Positions 16,343 through 22,638 of a stretch of 22,638 nucleotides of DNA are shown here, in pieces (positions within the stretch are counted from its first letter, which is position 1; every line of letters begins with the position of its first letter). Position numbers and translations under genes: made by a program. Source of the stretch: a virus; the IMG/VR virus record IMGVR_UViG_3300005435_000054, positions 1 through 22,638 of that record. One strand, written 5' to 3'. Under the pieces are notes generated by a model. That model saw only the letters and a list, made by a program, of their open reading frames with translations, made no database searches and was not told the origin of the DNA.

Positions 16343-16704
16343 CCCAGACTCTAGGTATTAACGAAAATAATGATATCTTCATCGGAACCGATGGCAACTT
16401 GGTTATCAGACGAGGGATACTGGCGACACGTGACGCTTGCACTACCATAGCTCAATGCCAGCAAGGGGAATGCATCTACGATACTAACCTGGGTATTCCT
16501 AATTTCCGGACAATTTGGAACGGCAACCCCAATATCCCGCAATTCGAAGCGGCGTTACGAAAAGCTATTTCGTCGGTTTCGGGGGTTGATCGAATTTTAA
16601 ATTTAGTTACCACTATTTCAGGTGGGGTATTAACTTATACGATGGCTATTTTAACGGTGTACGGGCAAACATTAATATCGGGGAACTTCAATGTCATTAG
16701 TTAG
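16339..16704 (+). CDS. Baseplate wedge / sheath initiator, gp25-like
   Basis: 121 aa, ATGA overlap with the spike. It resembles the short gp25/gpW-like family as found in this phage type: a beta start (LGINENNDIFIGTDGNLVIRRGILATRDACTTIAQCQQGECIYDTNLGIPNFRTIWNG) and a C-terminal helix-strand (FEAALRKAISSVSGVDRILNLVTTISGGVLTYTMAILTVYG). In T4-like phages gp25 connects baseplate wedges to the first sheath ring. It is encoded upstream of the J-like gene, the conserved order in contractile injection systems. It overlaps the next gene by 14 bp. Confidence 0.84.
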   Translation: MTQTLGINENNDIFIGTDGNLVIRRGILATRDACTTIAQCQQGECIYDTNLGIPNFRTIWNGNPNIPQFEAALRKAISSVSGVDRILNLVTTISGGVLTYTMAILTVYGQTLISGNFNVIS

Positions 16705-17890
16705 CTATGCGTATATCACTTTAAGCGGAACGATCATCCCGGACACACTGGATATTTTGGTCGAAGTAGAAAACGAGTATAAAGCTGCGCTCGGCGCGGA
16801 TCTTATCGTCACACCGGATACGCCGCAGGGTGTTCTCATCGCAGCGGAGACCGAAACGCGGGATGCCATTGCACGTAACAATGCTACTCTAGCCAATCAA
16901 ATAAACCCGAATTTAGCGGGCGGTGTTTACCTCGACGCCATTTTGGCGCTCACCGGCGCAGAACGAAACCCGCAGATATTTTCAACTGCCCCGTGTGCTC
17001 TTGCCGGTGTGGCTACAACCCCGATACCCGCGGGGACTATCTTCAGAGACGTTAACGGCAACGAGTGGCAAACCGAAACCATCGTTACATTAGATGGTGA
17101 TGGTAATGCGACAGTCACAGTTCAGGCTCTTACCGCCGGATCGATCACCGCCGCAGAAAATACTATCACCACCATCGTTACCGACATCCTGGGTCTTGAA
17201 ACCGTCACAAATACTGAAGCCGCGACGGTCGGGCAAGCAACGCAAACCGACGAAGCCACTAGAATCTACCGAAGAAATACGCTCGCGCTACAGGGGCAGG
17301 GGCTAGCCGAAGCGATTCTAAGCGGGCTAAATGCCACCCTCGGCGTACGTAGCGCGAAATTTTTAGAGAACCCAACGGGCATGACTGTAGTTAAGCAAAA
17401 CGTAACGCTAGTACCTCATTCGATGTGGGCTTGTGTCGACGGGGGCTCCGATACCGACATCGCGAACACGCTAACAATTAAAAAGAATGGTGGGTGCGCA
17501 TACAACGGAGATGTAACCGTCCCCACGACTAATCCCTTCAGCGGCCAAATCATTGATGTACTTTTCGATCGACCAACTCCCGTACCCGTACTTGCCCGCG
17601 TGACAATCAGCGCCGATATAAGCGCAGCGGATCCTGTAGGATCAGTAACAGCAGATATTCTAGCGTACGCGGATGGGTTACTTAACAATGAACCCGGGTT
17701 CGTTACGGGCGCTCAAGTATCGCCCTTTGAACTCGCCGGAGCGATTACGTGTCAAACGCCTACGATTTTTGTTAAAAAATTAGAAGTTTCATATGCGGAC
17801 TCTATCAGCTATGAGACGACAGAATTGTTCATCGAAATTTTTGAAATACCAACTATCGATGCTGGTTCAATTACGGTGATCGTCGAATGA
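16691..17890 (+). CDS. Baseplate J-like protein (gp6-type wedge)
   Basis: 399 aa. It shows the baseplate J pattern: N-terminal LVEVENEYKAALGADLIVTPDTPQGVLIAAETETRDAIARNNATLANQINPNLAGGVYLDAILALTGAERNP, then AGVATTPIPAGTIFRDVNGNEWQTETIVTLDGDGNATVTVQALTAGSITAAENTI and DEATRIYRRNTLALQGQGLAEAILSGLNATLGV. The family forms the iris-like ring of wedges that opens during contraction. The C-terminal third (VLARVTISADISAADPVGSVTADILAYADGLL...FVTGAQVSPFELAGAI) is the expected domain with VxxxPFELAGAI-type end. GGGGA before the ATG; ATGA overlap with the next gene. Confidence 0.92.
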   Translation: MSLVSYAYITLSGTIIPDTLDILVEVENEYKAALGADLIVTPDTPQGVLIAAETETRDAIARNNATLANQINPNLAGGVYLDAILALTGAERNPQIFSTAPCALAGVATTPIPAGTIFRDVNGNEWQTETIVTLDGDGNATVTVQALTAGSITAAENTITTIVTDILGLETVTNTEAATVGQATQTDEATRIYRRNTLALQGQGLAEAILSGLNATLGVRSAKFLENPTGMTVVKQNVTLVPHSMWACVDGGSDTDIANTLTIKKNGGCAYNGDVTVPTTNPFSGQIIDVLFDRPTPVPVLARVTISADISAADPVGSVTADILAYADGLLNNEPGFVTGAQVSPFELAGAITCQTPTIFVKKLEVSYADSISYETTELFIEIFEIPTIDAGSITVIVE

Positions 17891-18543
17891 ACATAGAGAA
17901 ATTTGACTATTCAGTTAACATTCTCCGCAATCTGATATGGGAGTATGATGACGCACCCGCAATGCTCTCGTTACTTACCGCCAAACAAAACTGGCTGATC
18001 ACTAACCAAACGCAATTTTGGGAGAGTTGGTACACGGACGTTTTTAACTTACAAACGGCTAATGATTTTGGTTTAGCAGTGTGGTCAATTATTCTCGGAC
18101 TGCCGCTATTTATAGCACCAAACCCGGAGCCCGATGACAAACCAATTTGGGGCTTCGACGATATCGGGTATCAAAATTATGATAACGGTACGTTCGCAAA
18201 TCCCTCCGGCGGTATTGTCCTAACCCTCGAAGAGAAACGTTTGGTCTTAAAATTACGTTATTTTCAGCTAATTACGCGGGGGGCGATCCCTGAGATAAAT
18301 GAATTTCTAGCCTTCGCATTTATAGATCTAGGATCCATATACGCATTAGACGGTCTAGATATGACAATGGTGTATGTATATTTATTTTCGCCCAGTCAAG
18401 ACTTACTAGCAGCTTTGATAACTTACGATTTACTACCACGGCCTGCCGGGGTACTATTGCATTATATTGATGCGACTCGTGAGACTTTTGGCTTTGACGA
18501 TAGCTTTTATCAGAATTTCGACAACGGGAGCTTTTTAGAATGA
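17887..18543 (+). CDS. Baseplate wedge protein (DUF2612)
   Basis: 218 aa after the J-like gene, the place of gp7/I-like wedge proteins that link baseplate and fibres. The family-like N-terminus (VNILRNLIWEYDDAPAMLSLLTAKQNWLITNQTQFWESWYTDVFNLQTANDFGLAVWSIILGLP) is followed by a GFDDIGYQNYDNGTF motif at residues 89-103. The motif recurs at the extreme C-terminus as GFDDSFYQNFDNGSF (202-216), corresponding to the FGF...NQGxF repeat I associate with DUF2612 proteins. The last residue codon overlaps the fibre gene start (ATGA), suggesting coupled expression of wedge and fibre. Confidence 0.87.
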   Translation: MNIEKFDYSVNILRNLIWEYDDAPAMLSLLTAKQNWLITNQTQFWESWYTDVFNLQTANDFGLAVWSIILGLPLFIAPNPEPDDKPIWGFDDIGYQNYDNGTFANPSGGIVLTLEEKRLVLKLRYFQLITRGAIPEINEFLAFAFIDLGSIYALDGLDMTMVYVYLFSPSQDLLAALITYDLLPRPAGVLLHYIDATRETFGFDDSFYQNFDNGSFLE

Positions 18544-19682
18544 CAGTTAAATATTTTATCACCCCCTTCGCTTCAGGCGGCCAAAGAACCGTAATCCCCG
18601 ACGCTTCTCAAGTGAGCGGAGCTGTCAGCTATACGGAAGGTTTCGGCCCAGATTACTCGAAAAATCTGCTAACAGACCCAGCAGCAAAACCTGTCCCACG
18701 TTTACAAAGTAACGAGCTTTATTACGAGACAACGCTTGCGGTTCAACAATACCAACAATTCGGATGTTTTCGTTTTATTACGACAACAGACAATGGTGGG
18801 ACTGCCTTTCCGTACACCTTCAATGCTAGCGCAATTTACGACGACTTAATGAATGGCCCGCGCCGATTCATGTCGAACACTAATGCGAATACCAGTTTAC
18901 CCACAGGGAACGTGGATCCGGATGACGACGGAAGATGGCAGCGTGCGCCGCTGTATATTTTTGCAACAGCGACAGGCACCGGCAACGCGATCACGATTAA
19001 CCCAACATTAACTTATCAAAATCTATTGCCTGGCGATAAGATCGAATTTTTAGCGACCGCACCAAACACCGGCCCGGTTACCCTCGCTCTTGGTACGGGT
19101 AGCCCCGTAAGTGTGACCACCCCTTCGGCTTCGGGCGTTGTCCCTCTAGATGGAGGAGCATTTGTCATCGGGGGGCTTTACACGGTTGCATTCGACGGTA
19201 CTAACTACCAGCTCTTTACTGTAAGCGGTAATGCGGCTACCGTTCCGCCGGGTACAATCTCAGCATCCGGCGGAACCGTCGCAGATGCGGGGTATCTAGC
19301 ATGCGATGGTACTGCAGTTAGTCGAACAGCCTATAGCCAGCTATTTGCTAAGATCGGGATTGCTTGGGGTGCGGGTGACGGCGTAACTACATTTAACGTC
19401 CCACTACTCGCCCGATCAACTCTAATCGGATCAGGAGGGAATCAGCTATCCCCGCTAGTAGGCACAGCGGTCGGAGATACGGGCGGCGAAGAGCTACACA
19501 CTCAAACAATACCGGAGCTCGCGGCACACACCCACGGAGTAGAAGTGTTCCCGACCGGGACAGGTTTAGGCTCGGGTACAGTAGTAACCGGGTCTTCGGG
19601 TACGACAGGATCTACCGGTAGTAGCACCCCGTTCAATGTCATGCAGCCGTCCGCTGTTGTATTCTTCCAGATCAAATACTAA
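18540..19682 (+). CDS. Tail fibre with phage tail collar domain
   Basis: 380 aa. Residues 1-140 form a baseplate-attachment-like N-terminus. Residues about 140-228 (ATATGTGNAITINPTLTYQNLLPGDKIEFLATAPNTGPVTLALG...GLYTVAFDGTNYQLF) are a shaft domain common in phage fibres. Residues about 236-295 (PPGTISASGGTVADAGYLACDGTAVSRTAYSQLFAKIG...GDGVTTFNVPLL) are the tail collar domain. The C-terminus has HTQTIPELAAHTHG and PFNVMQPSAVVFFQIKY, the usual collar-fibre ending, after a low-complexity Gly/Ser/Thr loop near 340-362. It probably acts in receptor contact. GGGAG precedes the ATG. There is no signal peptide. Confidence 0.9.
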   Translation: MTVKYFITPFASGGQRTVIPDASQVSGAVSYTEGFGPDYSKNLLTDPAAKPVPRLQSNELYYETTLAVQQYQQFGCFRFITTTDNGGTAFPYTFNASAIYDDLMNGPRRFMSNTNANTSLPTGNVDPDDDGRWQRAPLYIFATATGTGNAITINPTLTYQNLLPGDKIEFLATAPNTGPVTLALGTGSPVSVTTPSASGVVPLDGGAFVIGGLYTVAFDGTNYQLFTVSGNAATVPPGTISASGGTVADAGYLACDGTAVSRTAYSQLFAKIGIAWGAGDGVTTFNVPLLARSTLIGSGGNQLSPLVGTAVGDTGGEELHTQTIPELAAHTHGVEVFPTGTGLGSGTVVTGSSGTTGSTGSSTPFNVMQPSAVVFFQIKY

Positions 19683-19691
19683 AGGTGAGTC

Positions 19692-20102
19692 ATGGCTACA
19701 GTTTATAAAGATGTTTTAGTTGATGTTCCCGTAACTATCTTGAACGGGGCTTCCGTATCGAATTTAATTAATTGCGCTGCATTGCCGAATTTTCAAGGTG
19801 CAGCAACATTAATGCGCGTCTCCTTACCCGCAGGATTCCCGGCGGGGAATATGTCATTCATCACACAGAACTTTGTAAACGGCGCGATAGACACTACCCA
19901 GTACCCATTTTCTTTAACTGATGGTGTGGATACCGCAGCTCCGCTTGTTCCTGTTGCGGGCGGTCTTCAGTCCATCGCATTTCCGGCGTACTGGTTCGCT
20001 TCCGTCGTATTGATACGACTCAAGATGAATGCGCCGGTTAGCGGGGATCAAATTTTTACTGCGCATTTTCAGCCTATAATTCAAGGCGCAAATAATGTAT
20101 AA
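19692..20102 (+). CDS. Small fibre-region protein, beta-sandwich type
   Basis: 136 aa, not assigned to a named family. The composition is beta-rich and hydrophobic, with TLMRVSLPAGFPAGNMSFITQNFVNGAIDTTQYPFSLTDGV, then GGLQSIAFPAYWFASVVLIRLKMNAPVSGDQIFTAHFQPIIQG. This pattern (LP.G..AG.M.F, ...., ..I.L..) resembles single-domain beta-sandwich proteins often encoded next to tail fibres, possibly a fibre accessory or tip protein. Good ribosome site AAGGTGAG before the ATG. No signal peptide. It sits between the collar fibre and the 50-aa ORF. Role inferred from location. Confidence 0.75.
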   Translation: MATVYKDVLVDVPVTILNGASVSNLINCAALPNFQGAATLMRVSLPAGFPAGNMSFITQNFVNGAIDTTQYPFSLTDGVDTAAPLVPVAGGLQSIAFPAYWFASVVLIRLKMNAPVSGDQIFTAHFQPIIQGANNV

Positions 20103-20252: not shown

Positions 20253-20777
20253 ATGGCACAAGAAAAGTTTAGTCAATTCTATAACGCCCCCACGATCACC
20301 AGTGAAGATTTTATCGTCGGGTACCGTCCTTCACGCCCCGTAGGCGACCGCAACATTCAGATCAATAAATTAGCGGCTTTCGGAACGAATGGGGTGTATA
20401 CACCCACCGTAGCCGCGGTGTCGGGGGTAGATTCCGCTACGGGGCTACAATCGTCGTTCATCGCGCCTAACATCGCGGTGGGGGCGGTAGTGTCGATGAA
20501 ATTGAATTTCACTGTGACTACAAACACATCACCTGCAGTTGTTAGCGTTCCTCTTCCCGCAGCATTAGCTAATTCCATCACGGGAGTGGGGGCAGTTATC
20601 GACGGCGGGGGCAATGTTAAATTCACGGTAAACCCGAGCGCAGCGGATGGTGTTCCCGGGGACATGGACAGTAATATCGACGGTTCGATCCATATCGGAA
20701 TTAAAAATGCGGTAGGCATTCAAACTTACCGGGTAAGTATCTCATTAGACTATGTTATTCAAGCGCTGCCGAGCTAG
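20253..20777 (+). CDS. Fibre-tip-like protein carrying a GxYxPTV domain
   Basis: 174 aa. Residues 1-45 (QEKFSQFYNAPTITSEDFIVGYRPSRPVGDRNIQINKLA) look like a short fibre attachment segment of the type that precedes tail-fibre repeats. Residues about 47-170 form a beta-rich domain beginning GVYTPTVAAVSG and running through VGAVVSMKLNFTVTTNTSPAVVSVPLP...GVGAVIDGG to the end. The same domain occurs at the C-terminus of the next protein. This kind of domain is common at phage fibre C-termini, and may bind receptors. There is no cysteine and no signal peptide, consistent with ordinary cytoplasmic assembly into the virion. Weak ribosome site (GGA about 9 bp before the ATG). Confidence 0.8.
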   Translation: MAQEKFSQFYNAPTITSEDFIVGYRPSRPVGDRNIQINKLAAFGTNGVYTPTVAAVSGVDSATGLQSSFIAPNIAVGAVVSMKLNFTVTTNTSPAVVSVPLPAALANSITGVGAVIDGGGNVKFTVNPSAADGVPGDMDSNIDGSIHIGIKNAVGIQTYRVSISLDYVIQALPS

Positions 20778-20787
20778 AGGAAGAACT

Positions 20788-22374
20788 ATGAAAAAATTAC
20801 TTTTATTACTATTGTTTTTATCATCTAGTATTTTTGCGGCGGATAACCCATGCCTGGGAAGCGTAGGCTGTACCGGGGTGAATAACGGTAACAGAACGAT
20901 AACCGTCGGGGGGAACTTAAATACCTCCGGTGCGTTTAACACCGTCGGAGGGTTCGGTTTAACTTTTAACTTATCGGCGTTAACGAATCTCACGCTACCG
21001 ACCTCCGGCACTGTGGCCACATTGAGCGATTTGGGTAGTGTAAACGTTACGAATGACAACGATACAAATGCTGTGATGTATCCACTGTGGGTGAGTGGTA
21101 CTAGCGGGGCTCAATCAACAAAAGTATCTAGTAACGTTTTTGCATGGAATCCTGCAGCTGAGTTGTTTCGAATTGGTAACCTTAGCTCATCCTTCATTTT
21201 AGCCCAATCGTATGGTGGGGACGCAATTGTAAACATCAATCGTACTGGTACTAATTCTGCGGCTGTTGAATACGACGCGGGGGGGTTTGCGATATGGCGC
21301 GCAGGGTTACTAACTAGTAACACTGATTACACCATCCGAGACCAACCTAACGGCCAAGCACAGTTAACAATTAAACAGGGCTCCGGGGCAACAGGGATAG
21401 CTACATTTGCCGGGGTGGTTAACATCGGGTCCGCAGGCACTGCTTCTTCTGTTTTTGATATTGGATCAACTGCTAAAGGCTCGAGACCGTATCCATCAAT
21501 GACGGGCGCGCAAAGAGACGCAATCAGCTCTCCTGCAGAAGGGCTAACTGTTTACAATACGGATACGCATAAACCGAGTTTATATAACGGTACTTCCTGG
21601 GTTTCTGGGTCATTGGGCGGTGATCTTCAAAATTCCTACGATAACGGCACCCCCACAGCTCAGGGGTCAATTTTCTTAACCGCTGATAATTTAAACCCTA
21701 TTGCTGCATTCGCCACCACAACAGACTCAACAAAACTTGTTTTCGAGGCTGTCAATAATATAGCGAATAGCGATGGTAATTGGGGCTACGGATTCCGAGG
21801 GCCTAATTCATCTTCTAACTACACACAATTTGCTCGGATTCAAGCCTCTGCGCCTGTTGCAACCGAGGGCGCAGAGAGCGCAAGATTACTATTTCTCGTA
21901 AAGAGCGCCGGTGCTAATTTAGGGGGATTGCTTATTGATGGAAACGCGCAAGAAGTTAGCTCACCCTGGCCGATTACCGCGCCGAACATAGGCAATCAGC
22001 GATCCGGGTCATATGCACCGACTGTAACTTGCGTGAGTGGTTGTAGCTCGCCTGCATCAGTAAAAGCATTCTATCAGTATAACGATGCAAACGTTGGTTC
22101 GACGCAATCGATTAACGCCGAGGTTACTTTTACCGCAACCGCTACAACTGGGGTTGTTCGAGTTTCTTGTCCAGTCGATCCTAATTTTAATGCTTCAGGG
22201 GAAGCTTCCGGCGTGGGTACGATTCACAGGACATCCGGCGCGGCTATCGGAGATGGCACGGTTGTTGGTGCTGAAAGTCAATCAGGAAATAACGGCATTA
22301 ATTTAAATTGGATTGTGTCCACAGACAGCGTGGGCTATACCGTTAACGTAGCGGGTGTGTGTCAGAACCAGTAA
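20788..22374 (+). CDS. Fibre-like protein with N-terminal signal peptide and cysteine-containing tip domain
   Basis: 528 aa from ATG 20788, preceded by AGAGGAAG at a good distance; an upstream in-frame ATG at 20752 lies inside the previous gene and would bury the signal sequence. Residues 1-17 (MKKLLLLLLFLSSSIFA) have a two-Lys n-region, Leu-rich core and a plausible SIFA-AD cleavage site. The rest is fibre-like: NLTLPTSGTVATLSDL near 67-82, the common GSRPYPSMTGAQRDAISSPAEGLTVYNTDTHKPSLYNGTSW module at 231-271, and a GSYAPTV C-terminal domain (about 407-528) related to the preceding gene's domain. Six cysteines (22, 28, 415, 419, 461, 525) all lie outside the signal. Candidate function: exported fibre-like adhesin, decoy or periplasm-matured fibre; not proven. 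Confidence 0.85.
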   Translation: MKKLLLLLLFLSSSIFAADNPCLGSVGCTGVNNGNRTITVGGNLNTSGAFNTVGGFGLTFNLSALTNLTLPTSGTVATLSDLGSVNVTNDNDTNAVMYPLWVSGTSGAQSTKVSSNVFAWNPAAELFRIGNLSSSFILAQSYGGDAIVNINRTGTNSAAVEYDAGGFAIWRAGLLTSNTDYTIRDQPNGQAQLTIKQGSGATGIATFAGVVNIGSAGTASSVFDIGSTAKGSRPYPSMTGAQRDAISSPAEGLTVYNTDTHKPSLYNGTSWVSGSLGGDLQNSYDNGTPTAQGSIFLTADNLNPIAAFATTTDSTKLVFEAVNNIANSDGNWGYGFRGPNSSSNYTQFARIQASAPVATEGAESARLLFLVKSAGANLGGLLIDGNAQEVSSPWPITAPNIGNQRSGSYAPTVTCVSGCSSPASVKAFYQYNDANVGSTQSINAEVTFTATATTGVVRVSCPVDPNFNASGEASGVGTIHRTSGAAIGDGTVVGAESQSGNNGINLNWIVSTDSVGYTVNVAGVCQNQ

Positions 22375-22384
22375 AGAGACGAAC

Positions 22385-22638
22385 ATGAAAAAATATTTTC
22401 TATACTTTCTACTGGCATGCAGCATAGCGTCTGCAGGGCCAATACCGGCGTACAATGTAGACGTTTTACCTGAATCGCAGATTACGAATCTAACTAGCGA
22501 CCTAGCTGCTAGATTACCATTGGCTGGCGGTACGATGAGCGGCAGCTTAATTTTAAATGCCGACGCCACCAGTTCTTTACAGCCAGTTACCTACCAACAA
22601 CTGAATGCGGCGATAACCGGCGTTTACAAACTCCAAGG
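22385..22638 (+). CDS. Fibre-like protein with N-terminal signal peptide (3' end off window)
   Basis: ATG 22385, 10 bp after the previous stop with AGAGA upstream; 84 codons visible and still open at the edge. It begins MKKYFLYFLLACSIASAGPIP: a two-Lys n-region, a short aromatic/Leu core and an ASA-GP signal peptidase I site. The LLAC inside the core could alternatively act as a non-ideal lipobox, making a lipoprotein. The downstream segment RLPLAGGTMSGSLILNADATSSLQPVTYQQL is a widespread phage tail-fibre repeat (LPLxGGTMxGxLxLxxDPxxxxxAxTxxY). So this is a second exported fibre-like protein, probably long. Function as for its neighbour; incomplete. Confidence 0.83.
   Translation, partial: MKKYFLYFLLACSIASAGPIPAYNVDVLPESQITNLTSDLAARLPLAGGTMSGSLILNADATSSLQPVTYQQLNAAITGVYKLQ

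Follow-up and report, generated by a model that had tools for sequence, protein, structure and literature searches.

Two adjacent fibre-like genes with Sec-type signal peptides in a myovirus tail operon, and a possible export route for tailed-phage receptor-binding proteins

The stretch of DNA analysed here (the window) is an entire IMG/VR record of 22,638 bases. It encodes a terminase, portal, head protease, major head protein, sheath, tape measure, baseplate hub, baseplate J protein, DUF2612 protein and a fibre of the Pfam Collar family, and judged by this gene content it is a fragment of a small contractile-tailed phage (myovirus). The nearest relatives of its baseplate J protein belong to phages recorded from Leptolyngbya, Pseudomonas, Stenotrophomonas, Bordetella, Erwinia, Yersinia and Shewanella. 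An identical baseplate J protein is encoded at another locus (L002, IMG/VR contig 3300025929_000065), but that contig ends soon after the gene and so does not extend the window. Downstream of the collar fibre lie two small genes without signal peptide (19692-20102 and 20253-20777) and then the two genes considered here, all on the + strand: gene 1 (20788-22374, 528 aa) and gene 2 (22385 to beyond 22636, 84 aa visible, cut by the contig end). Each begins some 10 bases beyond the stop codon of the gene in front of it, and their position directly downstream of the baseplate, collar fibre and small fibre-like genes places them among the tail-fibre genes. The features of the region are as follows.

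16691-18543, + strand: baseplate J-like protein and DUF2612 structural protein, the tail operon context (Pfam and PHROG matches, baseplate J relatives)
18540-19682, + strand: ordinary tail collar fibre without signal peptide (PF07484, E=4.6e-14; PHROG tail families)
20253-20777, + strand: short fibre-like gene without signal peptide or cysteine, sharing the C-terminal domain of gene 1 (BLASTP, cysteine count); internal control
20776-20783, + strand: AGAGGAAG, ribosome-binding site of gene 1, which overlaps the stop codon of the gene before it
20788-20838, + strand: signal peptide of gene 1, MKKLLLLLLFLSSSIFA, before AD (heuristic score 12.4)
20839-22374, + strand: mature fibre-like protein of gene 1, 511 aa, six cysteines, no Pfam or PHROG match above cut-off
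20995-21024, + strand: LPTSGTVATL, presumed fibre-stalk motif of gene 1
21445-21612, + strand: TGAQRDAISSP...YNTDT module of gene 1
22000-22371, + strand: C-terminal GSYAPTV..VSG domain of gene 1, four cysteines (BLASTP E=5e-5 to the upstream gene without signal peptide)
22385-22435, + strand: signal peptide of gene 2, MKKYFLYFLLACSIASA, before GP (heuristic score 10.7)
22436-22636, + strand: mature fibre-like start of gene 2, cut by the contig end (weak matches to phrog_1798 and phrog_26580)
22514-22543, + strand: LPLAGGTMSG in gene 2 (viral relatives with the LPLAGGTM motif)

Both proteins open with a leader of Sec type, as a preliminary description of this DNA had claimed: the N-termini consist of MKK, a hydrophobic L/F core and a small-residue site for signal peptidase I (I-F-A/A in gene 1 and A-S-A/G in gene 2, the slash marking cleavage), with no twin arginine. 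In context the sites read MKKLLLLLLFLSSSIFA/ADN and MKKYFLYFLLACSIASA/GPI. Under a heuristic for tripartite signal peptides (charged n-region, hydrophobic core, -3/-1 small-residue cleavage site) only these two of the 28 window genes pass. Shuffled proteins pass at 36/5600 (0.6%), giving two adjacent passes a chance of about 1e-3 (27 adjacent pairs x 0.0064 squared), and the argument that two leaders in a row speak against coincidence is upheld by this rate. Among ORFs of at least 200 aa from other viral fibre loci, 3/734 pass; one of these is dubious and the other two are the same gene in two records. The further claim that each gene has its own ribosome site is borne out for gene 1, where the site is strong, and only weakly for gene 2 (AAAGAGAC). 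Lipoprotein identity was rejected, given that the gene 1 leader contains no cysteine and that the LLAC of gene 2, at residues 9-12, is too N-terminal for a normal lipobox.

The mature parts are assembled from modules. LPTSGTVATL in gene 1 we take, from general knowledge of phage fibres, to be a fibre-stalk motif. Two other readings from the preliminary description have to be revised: LPLAGGTMSG, described as a repeat, occurs once in the visible part of gene 2, and the TGAQRDAISSP module, described as fibre-typical, is found in viral fibre-like ORFs without signal peptide but is commoner in secreted proteins of Bacteroidota. In cellular genomes the QRDAISSP module is common in signal-peptide-bearing proteins, almost always from loci titled Bacteroidota, and it matches 110/247 genomes of the class scanned, which, judging by how dense the matches are, we regard as Bacteroidia. 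A contig titled Comamonas sp. MAG (L117) leads to a genome whose class has this Bacteroidia-like density, and is probably mislabelled or from a mixed bin. Searches of viral contigs and of the phage collection for relatives of gene 1 or 2 found none of full length; the matches were confined to the QRDAISSP module or to short fibre modules of LPLAGGTM type. Searches of Pfam, PHROGs, NCBIfam and PDB sequences found no virion-anchor domain at the mature N-terminus of gene 1, for which the predicted structure is of low confidence (pLDDT 37). A trimeric autotransporter adhesin of Eib/YadA type was considered and rejected for want of a Pfam match to a YadA-type anchor in gene 1, the C-terminus of gene 2 lying beyond the window.

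The cysteines of gene 1 bear on its destination. Its paralogous neighbour at 20253-20777 contains none, against six in mature gene 1, four of them in the domain common to both. Extra cysteines in the copy that bears a signal peptide are as predicted by export into an oxidising compartment, although this is one comparison. Their even number would be a well-supported mark of such a compartment on the mature part of gene 1.

Searching with the collar fibre of the window led to an unrelated podophage whose collar protein carries an N-terminal signal peptide and an inserted cysteine pair. For this collar family 53 loci were collected, 47 of them usable, and the leader is present in 23 homologs and lacking in 24 (the homolog of L187, missed by the heuristic, was scored as bearing a leader by eye; that of L191, where the heuristic fired on an internal start, was scored as lacking one). 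Residue -1 is A or G and residue -3 is A, V or S in 23/23, and the cleavage point coincides with the residue before which most leaderless homologs have their start codon (A/AGTLPL versus M/AGTIPL). The mature cysteine count is even in 23/23 homologs with the leader versus 10/24 without it (Fisher 8e-6), homologs being counted without correction for relatedness; counted in the same way, cysteine pairs at three sites, defined post hoc, are present in 18/23 versus 0/24. On the collar tree the leader state needs four changes, three of them forced by well-supported branches, while the independent contrasts of leader and cysteines number only three, none in the wrong direction, too few for significance. 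One leaderless homolog with leader-bearing relatives (L186) looks like a clean loss of the signal peptide because its start codon directly follows the upstream stop. The collar homolog of a named Rhizobium plasmid prophage is likewise leaderless.

Signal peptides are also found on larger genes close by. Thirteen large fibre or tailspike genes, lying 1-3 kb downstream of the collar gene in the tailspike position, carry one (one gene being cut by a contig end), and their mature cysteine count is even in 11/13. A survey of other phages, which the preliminary description had recommended, thus finds fibre-domain proteins with signal peptides both in the collar family and among these neighbours. Leader-bearing, cysteine-rich examples of 393-896 aa are as follows.

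L183:7975-9990, L185:8253-10931, L186:7954-10203, L188:8177-10267
L196:8436-10073, L197:10148-11350, L198:8133-9599, L206:6232-8682
L207:8260-10185, L208:8171-9352, L219:7930-9186

In the product of the L197 gene the leader is followed by KYQDFPAATSVTATDLFLVAQGA, a sequence similar to the N-terminal start of the window gene at 20253-20777. Taken together, signal peptide anatomy, the paired-cysteine signature and the comparison of homologs in other phages make export of the gene 1 and gene 2 proteins a well-supported prediction.

Several further observations concern genes of virion regions. A small 'NIRV...FPA' adaptor is fused to a leaderless fibre downstream of the collar gene at nine loci (L181, L189, L192, L195, L201, L204, L213, L217 and L222) and is a separate gene in many phages whose fibre bears a signal peptide; the split of adaptor from fibre may accompany the switch to export. 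Genes whose products combine a signal peptide with cysteines that are mostly paired occur at L166:1064-1699, L168:556-1143 and L169:486-1076, that of L166 directly after the major capsid protein gene, and the first gene past the capsid gene in a Rhizobium plasmid prophage (L174:27-467) has 31% identity to the L166-type gene and lacks the leader. These products may be capsid cement proteins, in which case the pattern would reach head decoration as well. A podophage tail region encodes a fibre-like protein that has collagen repeats (GPAGPAGP), a signal peptide and two mature cysteines (L163:4585-5226). In the cultured cyanophage Pseudanabaena phage Pam5, a small protein with a signal peptide and two cysteines (Pam5_19, L171:8990-9457) directly follows the annotated tail spike gene.

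The podophage collar protein itself looks like a part of the virion. Exactly one collar gene was present in each of the viral records tested (30/30), so that the leader-bearing forms are not decoy copies kept beside a cytoplasmic one, and a decoy-paralog reading of them is unsupported. These genes occupy the usual tail position, and the family matches PHROG tail families and has no known catalytic domain. The mature N-terminal domain corresponds to the head-binding domain of P22-type tailspikes, with profile matches to Pan3 (9vyg) and Pam1 (7eeq) at E down to 3e-13, and a Foldseek search with the domain model (pLDDT 76) returned 1lkt (P22), 7sg7 (Sf6) and 8u1o at probability 1.00. The Pantoea protein WceF also matches this fold, and since WceF is exported and not part of a virion, a head-binding domain alone is no proof of virion attachment. 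The single-copy gene, its head-binding domain and the leader-bearing tailspikes nearby, all read from sequence, lead us to favour a virion role for the family. A signal peptide on the sole copy of a protein that retains a P22-like head-binding domain favours maturation in the periplasm followed by joining of virions at lysis.

For the window this suggests, at close to an even chance in our estimation, that the products of genes 1 and 2 are receptor-binding proteins that undergo export, mature in the periplasm and encounter virions when the cell lyses. They would encode fibre-type receptor-binding or adhesive proteins with cleavable Sec signal peptides, exported by the host Sec system late in infection; signal peptidase would remove the leader, and the proteins would trimerise and form disulfides in the periplasm. 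Once the holin breaks the inner membrane they could meet finished particles and attach as the outer receptor-binding parts, and would thus be exported versions of a normal virion part, comparable with the exported versions of endolysins in some phages. Such late attachment is possible in principle, since completed P22 heads accept tailspikes supplied in vitro, outside the cell. Against assembly into virions, no homolog of gene 1 or 2 ties either directly to the virion, and several of the leader-bearing tailspikes are encoded separately from the leaderless adaptor that elsewhere is fused to the fibre.

The preliminary description had preferred a different role and offered periplasmic maturation as its alternative; the podophage collar family favours the latter. 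Its first choice was that fibre modules act as decoys, adhesins or superinfection blockers in the periplasm or on the surface of infected or lysogenised cells, secreted non-virion factors that would be accessory in the manner of lambda lom, and this we regard as doubtful yet a serious contender. None of the fibre-region genes examined in seven cultured relatives of the window myovirus has a signal peptide, and the same region there carries small accessory and lysis genes. Genes 1 and 2 are extras placed after an ordinary collar fibre, and the window also holds leaderless fibre-like genes for the virion; together with the seven relatives, these mark the two genes as accessory. Against such a role, the window genes have neither a normally placed lipobox nor an outer-membrane anchor matched in Pfam, and no promoter-like or terminator-like site lies between 19700 and 22638. 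The podophage collar protein with its leader is, moreover, the only copy and keeps its virion-binding domain.

Exported glycan-modifying proteins of tailspike-like build, acting on host exopolysaccharide and not carried in the virion, are an improbable identity for the two products. The model would be WceF of Pantoea stewartii, a Tat-exported bacterial protein with a tailspike-like fold (PMC7949094) that appeared in the collar-family fold search, and one leader-bearing podophage tailspike (L183) does have a pectate-lyase-like domain. However, neither window gene shows an enzymatic domain (Pfam and PDB sequence search; visible part of gene 2), and the collar family is a single-copy tail gene without known catalytic domain.

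It is very improbable that the hydrophobic N-termini are uncleaved tips or chance sequences on ordinary fibres assembled in the cytoplasm. The hydrophobic core of gene 2 is short and such N-termini are absent from the fibre-region genes examined in the related cultured phages, but the two adjacent genes pass a test that 0.6% of shuffles pass, they keep the -3/-1 rule, the cysteine number is even, and in another family there are 23 leader-bearing homologs in which cleavage regenerates the leaderless N-terminus. Scarcely credible is a capture of cellular secreted genes or an assembly artefact joining host DNA to the phage end: the genes stand at the contig end and the QRDAISSP module is found in 110/247 genomes scanned, with leader-bearing examples in Bacteroidota-titled loci, but they are co-oriented with the tail operon at 10-base spacing, gene 1 uses a Shine-Dalgarno site, which Bacteroidota mostly lack, and the C-terminal domain of its product has a paralog in the adjacent upstream phage gene, for which reasons a captured Bacteroidota gene was rejected.

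Known systems resemble the proposed one in part. P22/Sf6-type tailspikes, including those of cyanophages Pam1 and Pan3, have their head-binding domain in common with the mature N-terminus of the leader-bearing collar family (1lkt, 7sg7, 7eeq, 9vyg), whereas genes 1 and 2 show no such domain. To our knowledge the P22-type tailspikes have no signal peptide and are made in the cytoplasm. The prophage-encoded Eib adhesins are surface proteins with signal peptides that come from the tail-fibre region. Lambda Lom is a further surface protein with a signal peptide encoded in that region (PMC12309495). Both differ from the present case in being outer-membrane proteins not made of virion fibre modules. 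PblA and PblB of the streptococcal phage SM1 are tail proteins that act as adhesins, and we know of no signal peptide on either. Exported, processed forms accumulate before lysis for Lys44 of Oenococcus phage fOg44 and for SAR endolysins (PMC6116005); here too a phage protein family has cytoplasmic and signal-peptide-bearing versions, but these are lysis enzymes and not virion or fibre proteins. WceF is exported, as proposed for the products considered here, and has a tailspike-like trimeric fold, but it is a bacterial glycan-modifying enzyme and not a gene of a phage tail operon (PMC7949094). In Nixviridae prophages of Porphyromonas gingivalis phage genes, some of them structural, are reported to have predicted signal peptides; for the major capsid protein the prediction was attributed to cleavage by the prohead protease, five other genes have no known function, and the passages on signal-peptide genes contain no fibre or tailspike case (PMC10367356). 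In the literature searched, with preprints and most subscription journals outside its scope, signal peptides were reported on lysis proteins, Lom and the Nixviridae prophage genes, and no account of exported or signal-peptide-bearing tail fibres or tailspikes was found.

Tailed-phage assembly is taught as a cytoplasmic process, and incorporation of such proteins into virions, if shown, would be a new assembly route. It is possible, and we propose it tentatively at somewhat less than even confidence, that a widespread group of tailed phages finishes its virions outside the cytoplasm, with collar spikes, tailspikes, fibres and perhaps capsid cement proteins synthesised as Sec preproteins that undergo processing and disulfide bonding in the periplasm and join particles at lysis. 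A signal peptide together with an even cysteine count on a tail gene could serve as an annotation rule for further cases. Should export of receptor-binding proteins be routine in some lineages, virion maturation there would have an extracytoplasmic last step, and disulfide bonds would be a stabilising strategy for fibres. The periplasm of a late-infected cell would then hold the receptor-binding proteins of its own phage, which would bear on receptor blocking, superinfection and defence.
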